Origin: an uncultured Oscillospiraceae bacterium
Lineage (GTDB): Bacteria; Bacillota; Clostridia; Oscillospirales; Ruminococcaceae
DNA length: 61,742 bases
Reading direction: 5' to 3'
Assembly (NCBI GenBank): GCA_949295465.1
Contig: CASFKY010000055.1
Span: 1-61,742, forward strand
Positions within the stretch are counted from its first letter, which is position 1, and each line of letters starts with the position of its first letter. Shown one piece after another: positions 1-41,536 of the stretch. The translations under genes were made by a program, and so were the position numbers. The notes under the pieces were generated by a model, which saw only the letters and a program-made list of their open reading frames with translations, ran no database searches and was not told where the DNA came from.

Positions 1-846
1 CCTGCTCAGCAGCCGGATGAAGTCGGGGGTGGTGCCGCAGCAGCCCCCCACCATGGCAAGGCCCAGCTCCCGGTAGGGCAGCATGGCCTGCAAAAACCCT
101 TGGGCGTCAATGTCATAGCCGCTGCCGTCGGCCCGGGGCAGCCCGGCGTTGGGCTTCACAAAGACGGCCACCCCCTGGGGCGCTGCCTCACAGAGCTGCT
201 TTGCCAGGGGGAAGATCTCGGCCGGGCCCAGGGAGCAGTTGATGCCCACCCCGTCGGCCCCCAGCCCCGAGGCCACCGCCGCAAAGCTCTGGACGGTGCA
301 GCCGGTAAAGGTGCGGCCGTTTTCCTCAAAGCTCATGCTCACCAATACCGGCAGGCGGCTGTTCTCCTTCACCGCCAAAAGGGCGGCCTTCACCTCGTAC
401 AGGTCGGTCATGGTTTCGATCACCGCCAGGTCGGCCTTGTCCCCGGCGGCCTTCACCATCTGGGCAAAGCAGTCGTAGGCCTCCTCAAAGCTTAAGGGGC
501 CGGCGGGCTCCAGCATCTCCCCCAGCGGGCCCATGTCCAGGGCCACCAGGGCCCCGTAGGGCCGGGCAGCCCGGCGGGCCACCTCCAGGCTGGCCGTCAC
601 GATCTCTTCCACCCCGTGGCCGGTGCCCGCCAGCTTTTTGCGGCTGGCCCCGAAGGTGTTGGCGTACAGCACCTGGCTGCCCGCCTCCAGGTATTGGCGG
701 TGAATGTCCTCCAGCAGCCGGGGCCGGGTGAGGGCCAGCAGCTCCGGCCGCTCCTCGGGGCCGATGCCCGCCCCTTGCAGCATGGTGCCCATGCCGCCGT
801 CCAGGATGACGGTGCGCCGCCCCTCAAAAAGCTCAGTAATCCGCAC
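1..846 (-). CDS. metH: Cobalamin-dependent methionine synthase, N-terminal part (runs off left edge)
   Basis: Hand translation gives a homocysteine S-methyltransferase domain. It opens with a TVILDGGMGTMLQ motif, carries a CS-type zinc ligand in GINCSLGPAE, and has the zinc-binding pair in MVGGCCGTTPDFI close to the window edge. That domain transfers a methyl group to homocysteine; in MetH, folate- and cobalamin-binding domains follow and would lie left of position 1. The chosen start is GTG at 846, because AGAGAGG sits 8 nt upstream and no ATG fits. It overlaps the activation-domain gene by 14 bp, so it is the third gene of a metF operon. The 282 visible codons could also belong to a short stand-alone homocysteine methyltransferase, but the separate activation-domain gene upstream makes split MetH more likely. 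Confidence 0.88.
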   Translation of the reverse strand, partial: MRITELFEGRRTVILDGGMGTMLQGAGIGPEERPELLALTRPRLLEDIHRQYLEAGSQVLYANTFGASRKKLAGTGHGVEEIVTASLEVARRAARPYGALVALDMGPLGEMLEPAGPLSFEEAYDCFAQMVKAAGDKADLAVIETMTDLYEVKAALLAVKENSRLPVLVSMSFEENGRTFTGCTVQSFAAVASGLGADGVGINCSLGPAEIFPLAKQLCEAAPQGVAVFVKPNAGLPRADGSGYDIDAQGFLQAMLPYRELGLAMVGGCCGTTPDFIRLLSR

Positions 847-10196: not shown

Positions 10197-10283
10197 GCGG
10201 ATGTGGCGGAATTGGCAGACGCGCTAGATTCAGGTTCTAGTGAAAGCAATTTCATATGGGTTCAAGTCCCTTCATCCGCACCA
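10197..10283 (+). tRNA. tRNA-Leu(CAG)
   Basis: A class II tRNA of 87 nt with encoded CCA. Acceptor GCGGATG pairs with CATCCGC; the anticodon arm CTAGA-TTCAGGT-TCTAG gives anticodon CAG, decoding CUG; a long variable arm and a GTTCAAGTC T-loop follow. The discriminator base is A. Confidence 0.96.
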
Positions 10284-39793: not shown

Positions 39794-41035
39794 TCACTCA
39801 AACACATAGAACAGGCCCAGGGCGGCAGCGGCGGCGTTCAGCAGGATGAAGGCCACGGCAGCCAGCAGCAGCTGGTTGTAGAGCTTGGCCCGGTCCACCC
39901 CCTCGGGGGCGCTGCCCACGGCAATGCCGCCCACGGTGGACAGGGGGCTGATGACCACGCCGTTGGTGCCCACGATGACGCCGATCACCAGGCGCAGGGC
40001 CGAGACGTTGCCCAGCTCACCGGCCAGCTGAGAGGCCAGGGGGATCAGGGTGGGCATGACCACGCCGGTGCCGCTGGACACAGCGCCCATCAGGCCGCCC
40101 AGGATCACAAAGATGGGCTGGGCCGAGCGGGGGCCCATCACCGCGGAGAGCTTGTCGGACAAAAAGTCGATGCCGCCGCAGGTGCTGACCACGTTGATCA
40201 GCACAGCCATGCCGCCGATCAGCAGGATGGTGGACCAGGGGATGGAGGCCACGGCCTTTTTCTGATCAGCCACGTCCAGCAGCAGCAGGGCGCCGGCGCA
40301 GGTGAAGCACATGAGGCCGATGTCCAGCCCGAAGAAGATCACCCCGATCAGCACCACCAGGATGGCGGCCAGGGTCAGCAGCTGCTTAGAGTCAAAGCGG
40401 ACAAAGGTGGGCTTCTGGGTCATTTTCTTCAGCTTCAGCCCGCCGAAGATCAGGTAGGCGCCAATGGAGAAGATGGTCATGCTGACGCCGTAGGCCATCC
40501 ACATGGGGCCGTAGTTGGTGAGGCCCTGCTCAGCGGCCAGCTGGGAGGCCACAATGCCGTTGATGGCCAGGGGGGACAGGCCGCCCACCATGATGCCGCC
40601 CATGGTGACCAGGCTCATCATAATCACCGAGATGCCGTTTTCCACCGCCACATACAGGGCGATGGGCATGATCACCGCCACGATCAGCCCGCCGGCGCCC
40701 GCGCCGGAAACCACCGCCCCCAGCACAAAGAAGAGGACGGGCAGCAGCTTTGCGTTGCCCCGGGCCAGGCAGGCAATGTTCTGGCTGAGCGCCTGGGTGG
40801 TGCCGTTCAGGTTGGCGATGCCGAACAGGAAGGTGGTGGACAGCACGATGAAGAATACGCTCATGGGCCAGCCGGAGGATACGATCTTGCTGACGGTGAT
40901 CTCCACCCCGCAGGCGGCGGCGATGGAGGAGAAGATGAACGCGGCCATGATGGCCAGGATGCCGGCATTCTTTTTGGTGATCACGCTGAGGGCGATCACT
41001 GCCACCAGCACCACGAGAGACAATACAGGAATCAC
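39794..41035 (-). CDS. Ion-transporter-superfamily permease (SLC13/MatC-like), T-box controlled
   Basis: A 413-residue membrane protein with about eleven hydrophobic segments and Gly/Ser/Thr-rich re-entrant motifs (GAVVSGAGAGGLIVAVIMPIAL; GLMGAVSSGTGVVMPTLIPLASQL). It resembles the MatC/DASS dicarboxylate carriers, so C4-dicarboxylate or a similar acid is the annotation default. The start is GTG 41035, with GAGG 8 nt upstream. A T-box leader (41224-41536) controls it; the likely specifier is CTG (Leu), so the substrate may be an amino acid or a related organic acid instead. Confidence 0.85.
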   Translation of the reverse strand: MIPVLSLVVLVAVIALSVITKKNAGILAIMAAFIFSSIAAACGVEITVSKIVSSGWPMSVFFIVLSTTFLFGIANLNGTTQALSQNIACLARGNAKLLPVLFFVLGAVVSGAGAGGLIVAVIMPIALYVAVENGISVIMMSLVTMGGIMVGGLSPLAINGIVASQLAAEQGLTNYGPMWMAYGVSMTIFSIGAYLIFGGLKLKKMTQKPTFVRFDSKQLLTLAAILVVLIGVIFFGLDIGLMCFTCAGALLLLDVADQKKAVASIPWSTILLIGGMAVLINVVSTCGGIDFLSDKLSAVMGPRSAQPIFVILGGLMGAVSSGTGVVMPTLIPLASQLAGELGNVSALRLVIGVIVGTNGVVISPLSTVGGIAVGSAPEGVDRAKLYNQLLLAAVAFILLNAAAAALGLFYVFE

Positions 41036-41223: not shown

Positions 41224-41513
41224 TAAAAAAACGTCCCCGGCGCCCCAAAGGACGCCGGAGACGACAAAATCGCGGTACCACTCCGATTGGTGCTGATGCA
41301 CCCACTCTGCGCAACGGCCCGAAGGCGATTGCTTTTCCCTGTAACGGTGGAACTCCGTGCGGCCTACTCCTGCGCGTTTGGGCCAGCCCGCTCCCCGGCC
41401 AGTAAAGTGGACGCTCGCCGCTGCCTCGCACCGCCCGACAGCTCTCTGAAGGCTACCTGCCCACCGTTTTCCGGTTCTCTGCGTTTTGTTTTTTCAATGC
41501 GGGTGCCATTATA
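41224..41513 (-). ncRNA. T-box riboswitch leader of the MatC-like permease
   Basis: Minus-strand RNA from a consensus promoter (41536-41508). It contains a stem I with the distal CAGAGAG element, a stem II region (GAGTAG...ACGG/CCGTTA), the T-box sequence GGAGTGGTACCGCG (41284-41271) and a terminator stem GTCTCCGGCGTCC/GGGCGCCGGGGAC followed by a run of T (to about 41224). The internal loop on the 3' side reads TTACTGG, in which CTG (41402-41400) fits the specifier position. The TGGT bulge pairs with an ACCA tRNA end, as in the tRNA-Leu at 10197. Confidence 0.9.
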
Positions 41514-41536
41514 GCACCTTCCCCTCCCCCTGTCAA
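41508..41536 (-). promoter_or_regulatory. Promoter of the T-box leader
   Basis: Minus strand TTGACA (41536-41531), 17-bp spacer, TATAAT (41513-41508); perfect consensus. Confidence 0.9.

Follow-up and report, generated by a model that had tools for sequence, protein, structure and literature searches.

T-box leaders of the leucine class of RF00230, such as those of the Bacillus subtilis ilv-leu operon and yvbW, have a specifier in stem I, a TGGN bulge and a switch between antiterminator and terminator, all of which recur in the leader described here. The transporter families in the table of a 2008 T-box survey, as given in the excerpt consulted (PMC2494555), are ABC, APC, DAACS, LIVCS, MFS, NHAC and NSS, and CitMHS/SLC13 is absent from it. 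In its excerpted text, a 2025 paper lists tandem riboswitches with T-boxes for the leuA, leuB, leuC and leuD genes of Bacillota (PMC12452182). As for pathway intermediates, excerpts of three further papers report that the yeast mitochondrial carrier Oac1p moves alpha-isopropylmalate from the matrix to the cytosol for leucine synthesis (PMC8395155), that 2-isopropylmalate is among the products of the mouse gut microbiome (PMC9977316) and that a marine bacterium mutated in leuA, leuB or leuD gains fitness with partner bacteria, the exchanged compound not being stated there (PMC10041152). Oac1p resembles the permease described below in the cargo that we propose for the latter, a parallel of function only. 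In the literature searched (titles and the starts of abstracts, with subscription journals mostly outside), we found no report of a bacterial isopropylmalate importer and none of a T-box on a CitMHS gene.

A complete T-box leader upstream of a permease gene

The window (the whole stretch of DNA analysed, 61,742 nucleotides) carries on its minus strand a complete T-box leader upstream of a CitMHS/MatC-type permease gene, and this leader is an additional member of the already known class. It is preceded by a sigma-70 type promoter with an extended -10 element (TG) at 41508..41536 (-), which reads TTGACA-17-TATAAT with 12/12 matches and so bears out the perfect promoter of the original prediction; TTGACA also precedes the homologous leaders of relatives. 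The leader itself, comprising stem I, a stem II/III region and the antiterminator, occupies 41254..41488 (-) and matches RF00230 from end to end (model positions 1-219, minus strand 41488-41254) with 86.9 bits and an E value of 2e-19. As the Rfam gathering score for this family is 93, the leader is absent from a default scan, and it differs from the class in this low score and in the missing consensus AGUA of the 5' loop. The same would apply to most T-boxes of the window genome, in which nine were found and only three of the nine reach the gathering score, so that default annotation would miss the majority.

The T-box sequence GGAGTGGTACCGCG lies at 41271..41284 (-), its TGGT (41280-41277) pairing with the ACCA end of tRNAs with A73. 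The antiterminator at 41255..41286 (-) and the intrinsic terminator at 41225..41263 (-) have CTCCGG in common and are mutually exclusive; the latter, supported by folding and by a terminator search, consists of a 14-bp stem (41263-41232) followed by T7, and about 190 bases separate it from the permease start. Promoter-like sites numbered two against a mean of 0.2 in shuffles, and terminator-like sites three against a mean of 1.1. When the terminator was folded alone, it formed 14 pairs at -29.7 kcal/mol (z -6.87), and none of 200 shuffles was as good. Neither the antiterminator (z -0.44; 60/200 as good) nor stem I (z 0.66; 150/200 as good) folded better than shuffles when taken alone.

We also examined covariation in an alignment of seven homologous leaders, using the 33 proposed pairs, 500 shuffles and five measures. 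The proposed structure was supported: 96.0% of the proposed pairs were standard pairs across the seven leaders, both sides had changed in 14 of the 33, and not one of the 500 shuffles scored as high on any of the five measures. When the structure was slid along the alignment, standard pairs dropped to 36.5-52.0%. For the antiterminator alone the same alignment gave 90.9% pairing and values above every shuffle on three of the five measures, the other two not being above all shuffles (99 and 303 of 500). Membership of the T-box class is thus marked by a full-length covariance match, though under the gathering score, by a TGGN bulge within an antiterminator that cannot form together with the terminator, and by compensatory changes. 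The minus-strand T-box leader with its stem elements and terminator, as originally predicted, is therefore upheld by the match, the covariation and the 14-pair terminator together.

The specifier codon and the tRNA sensed

In the Rfam alignment the specifier is CTG (Leu) at 41400..41402 (-), followed by the purine G at 41399, within the loop TTACTGG (41405-41399). The covariance search and the comparison of homologous leaders, proposed originally as the check on this codon, placed CTG, with G as the next base, at the specifier of the window leader and of all six leaders visible in relatives, in agreement with the predicted reading of that loop. ACTGGCC is invariant in these seven leaders, and a choice between ACT, CTG and TGG can therefore not be made from conservation alone. 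The register is clearest in one relative (L053), where the loop reads GAA-CTG-G, without TAC and TTA.

The discriminator base of the tRNAs provides a second criterion, as the TGGT of the T-loop calls for A73. The window contains a tRNA-Leu(CAG) with A73 at 10197..10283 (+), which matches the specifier without wobble, and each of the five tRNA-Leu genes detected in the window genome (CAG, TAA, TAG, CAA and GAG) has A73, as expected from the predicted pairing of TGGT with the ACCA end of this tRNA. In the same genome, both tRNA-Thr found have U73, tRNA-Trp has G73 and tRNA-Tyr has A73. The other T-boxes of this genome, whose genes and specifiers were assigned by eye, served as internal controls: the one before a thrS-like gene has TGGA, that with AAC before an aspS-like gene has TGGC, matching the G73 of tRNA-Asn, and that before a valS-like gene has GTC and TGGT, matching the A73 of tRNA-Val. 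For two others, the alaS-like T-box with GCC and TGGT and the cysS-like T-box with TGC and TGGG, there was nothing to compare, as neither tRNA-Ala nor tRNA-Cys turned up in the window genome.

A third line of evidence comes from the leuA-operon T-boxes of G012, a genome of the same genus as the window, and of G199, the genome of one of the permease relatives. Both contain TATACTGGCCC in the specifier region and GAGTGGTACC as the T-box, share ACTGGCC with the window leader and have TGGT. They precede biosynthetic genes, whereas the window T-box precedes a permease gene, beside which only leuB occurs in relatives. The Rfam register places CTG and G at the specifier in the G199 leader, and ACT with an inserted G in that of G012 (L112). 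We take the latter as a one-base alignment slip, because both leaders precede leuA and both have TGGT.

Given the Rfam register, the match of TGGT with A73 together with its internal controls, and the ACTGG of the leuA-operon T-boxes, the window T-box almost certainly senses a leucine tRNA; a leucine codon at the specifier and a T-loop matching N73 of tRNA-Leu place it in the leucine class. Its CTG differs from the CUC specifier of the B. subtilis ilv-leu operon, as named in a reference title within PMC2494555. Candidate specifiers rejected were Thr (ACT), Trp (TGG; the G73 of tRNA-Trp does not fit TGGT, and the Rfam register is CTG and G) and Tyr (TAC). That the leader senses tRNA-Thr through ACT, the main rival named in the original prediction, or tRNA-Tyr through TAC is very improbable: ACT does overlap CTG inside the invariant ACTGG and is registered by Rfam in L112, and tRNA-Tyr does have A73, but both tRNA-Thr found have U73 and the thrS-type T-box uses TGGA, threonine control would be odd for leuA-operon leaders sharing ACTGG, TAC is absent from the GAACTGG of L053, and the neighbouring gene in relatives is leuB.

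The regulation that we infer from the sequence, the covarying structure and these specificity signals would be that of a leucine T-box of the transcription-termination class in front of the permease. In stem I, CTG would pair with the anticodon of uncharged tRNA-Leu(CAG), whose ACCA end would pair with TGGT; the antiterminator of the tRNA-bound leader would then be stabilized, and under leucine shortage transcription would enter the permease gene.

The permease and its gene neighbourhood in relatives

The permease gene (39794..41035, minus strand, GTG start) encodes 413 amino acids with matches to both CitMHS (PF03600; 81.3 bits, cut-off 31.9) and MatC_N (PF07158; 75.8 bits, cut-off 23), which places it in the CitMHS/MatC group and confirms that a MatC/SLC13-like permease lies downstream of the T-box. 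It matched no NCBIfam model up to an E value of 0.01 and no PDB sequence up to an E value of 10, those of SLC13/DASS proteins with a structure included. From other permeases that meet both Pfam models it differs in its leucine T-box and in this lack of NCBIfam and PDB matches.

A scan of GTDB contigs yielded seven relatives of the permease (L047-L053, all from metagenome-assembled genomes by title), to which that of the window is 71-93% identical over the best segment; a second comparison with the seven gave 72-93%. As these are mutually related (permeases 69-97% identical), they are not independent cases. A T-box precedes the permease locus in six of the seven, the contig of L047 starting inside the preceding gene, and T-box and permease thus occur together in all seven loci whose leader is visible, that of the window and those of six relatives. 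The order T-box-leuB-permease is found in L048, L051, L052 and L053, that is, in four of the six relatives with a visible T-box; L047 shows leuB-permease, and L049 and L050 show T-box-permease, as in the window. Thus leuB lies directly upstream of the permease in five of the seven relative loci. All five leuB genes exceeded the TIGR00169 cut-off of 353, with scores of 479-515 bits, and stayed under the cut-offs of the tartrate, homoisocitrate and isocitrate dehydrogenase models and of two further isopropylmalate dehydrogenase models; for the LeuB of L048, 32 of the 32 PDB sequences listed at E values up to 1e-60 are named 3-isopropylmalate dehydrogenase.

The permease is rare: a search of 394 genomes of the order at an E value of 1e-60 matched only the window's own genome, and a wider search of the family of G203 (300 genomes) matched only G203 itself. 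At an E value of 1e-20, five of 197 genomes of the window's family matched, namely the window's own and four with distant permeases (32-38% identity), and G012 had no match at this threshold. No T-boxes were found at the loci of the four distant genomes (L055-L059). One of these loci (L055:450-3029, on G006:C30) holds a tandem pair of permease genes that lacks a T-box and shows 37-38% identity to that of the window; the one of the two that was scanned matched CitMHS and MatC_N. In the permease tree eight rows form the starred set, with most inner forks open and support for the pairs L048/L051 (86/99) and L049/L050 (86/79), and this tree cannot tell loss of leuB from gain.

Possible cargo of the permease and other T-box loci

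We surveyed leucine-pathway genes in the eight permease genomes and in G012. Where leuB lies beside the permease, in five genomes, there is neither a LeuC-sized aconitase-family ORF nor an ilvC or ilvD over the cut-off. Across all eight, ilvC passed the cut-off only in G199, and ilvD only in G199 and the window genome, the two that also have a LeuC-sized aconitase-family ORF (421-431 amino acids). The other six have only longer ORFs of this family (648-850 amino acids), apart from an additional one of 182 amino acids in G197; the longer ORFs of G198 and G201 adjoin isocitrate dehydrogenase, as judged by eye. None of the nine genomes gave a leuA match above the TIGR00973 cut-off: there was no match at all in the window genome and G200, G198 and G201 gave matches near 20 bits only, and the best scores in G197, G202 and G203 were 148, 181 and 89 bits. 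Four of these leuA-like ORFs, two from G197 and two from G202, scored below every NCBIfam cut-off, and that of G203 resembles Re-citrate synthase by eye. The LeuA of G012 belongs to another model (NF002991; 785.7 bits against 455) and is encoded in a leuA-leuC-leuD-leuB operon with LeuC and LeuD over their cut-offs. G199 has leuA-like, leuC, leuB and ilvC genes in addition to the permease, with a leuA-like-leuC-leuB run behind a T-box, and here the permease would be a supplementary route.

In the five leuB-permease genomes there is hence no clear internal source of the LeuB substrate, which, as neither a LeuC-sized ORF nor an IlvC over the cut-off is seen, would have to be supplied from outside. 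Because the order T-box-leuB-permease occurs in relatives without visible LeuC or IlvC, our best explanation, with a probability of roughly one in two, is a leucine T-box controlling a permease predicted to import isopropylmalate. The original prediction had suggested as cargo leucine, the corresponding keto acid or an intermediate of leucine biosynthesis, and the leuB order favours narrowing this to isopropylmalate. The latter is a branched dicarboxylate, which LeuB would oxidize to 2-ketoisocaproate for a branched-chain transaminase to convert into leucine. Since it is a dicarboxylate of the leucine pathway, its import would reconcile the annotation as a dicarboxylate carrier with control by leucine, and the permease would then carry this compound and not an ordinary dicarboxylic acid. 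LeuB requires 3-isopropylmalate. The isomer named as gut-derived is 2-isopropylmalate (PMC9977316), which would be of no use to genomes lacking LeuCD, and this counts against the proposal. More broadly, the permease and, in relatives, the orphan LeuB under a leucine T-box probably represent uptake of a leucine-pathway intermediate, and this controlled function would be a new variant.

Imported isopropylmalate would be useless without LeuB, which counts against the proposal for the window genome and G200. Further points against it are the leuA-like, leuC, leuB and ilvC genes that G199 has in addition to the permease, and the leuA-like matches below the cut-off in G197, G202 and G203. In the window genome, which is 84% complete, no leuB, leuA or ilvC was found. 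Its T-box operon is itself without leuB, and tblastn detected no leuB remnant between T-box and permease, no match having an E value better than 0.15 in 4 kb or better than 0.30 in the whole window. Given the completeness of this genome, the absence of leuB may be due to chance. No leuB was found in G200 either, where absences mean little, as this genome looks the least complete (15 tRNA matches, the other eight having 25-50 each). The window genome does contain a branched-chain aminotransferase (474 bits, cut-off 307). It also has a leuC-leuD-like pair (L111:4642-9778, on G000:C59), with 700 bits against 611 for the large and 235 against 246 for the small subunit. This pair shares 97% identity with a second pair of G012 but only 65-69% with the leu-operon pair, and adjoins genes for a LysR-like regulator and a TctC-like receptor; it may act on another 2-hydroxy acid.

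The best rival to isopropylmalate import, although an unlikely one, is that the permease imports 2-ketoisocaproate, the keto acid of leucine, for which a transaminase alone is needed. This would work without leuB in the window genome and G200, and the aminotransferase is at hand in the former. However, it leaves unexplained why leuB stands between T-box and permease in four of the six relatives with a visible T-box, and ketoisocaproate is a monocarboxylate, whereas the Pfam models take their names from carriers of citrate and dicarboxylates. Import of leucine or leucine-containing compounds is less probable still. The APC and NSS transporters with leucine T-boxes in the 2008 survey are predicted, in the excerpt consulted, to carry leucine (PMC2494555), yet CitMHS/MatC is missing from its table of transporter families and such a cargo gives no reason for the leuB partner. 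Marginally weaker again is the view of the permease as an ordinary dicarboxylate carrier, or as an exporter of a leucine-pathway acid, with a T-box acquired or shared for other reasons. The default Pfam annotation and the distant relatives without a T-box at their loci accord with it, but T-box and permease stay together in all seven loci with a visible leader, down to 72% identity.

Building on isopropylmalate import, we tentatively suggest that this group of Clostridia lives on isopropylmalate from its neighbours, having discarded most of the leucine pathway, with the T-box driving the importer and LeuB, and the last two steps retained. If this is true, the permease would be a bacterial isopropylmalate transporter re-annotated through its RNA switch, community members would trade a pathway intermediate instead of a finished amino acid, and calls of leucine auxotrophy based on missing leuA or leuC would be wrong for these species.

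Other T-boxes of the window genome and its relatives were also noted. At L003:1501-3019 (G000:C1), a T-box with a specifier that by eye is probably ATC precedes a threonine ammonia-lyase gene (over the TIGR01127 cut-off), in a genome where ilvC was not found. Another with the Rfam-register specifier ATC (Ile), followed by C, lies before a BASS-family transporter at L002:1501-2801 (G000:C14); this protein is under the NCBIfam PanS and bass cut-offs and may be a further importer of a precursor, in this case an acid of the isoleucine pathway. Finally, CstA-family genes lie downstream of a T-box with CTC (Leu) in the window genome (L001:1736-2, on G000:C53), with a possible intervening ORF, and of one with ATC (Ile) at L053:2269-206.
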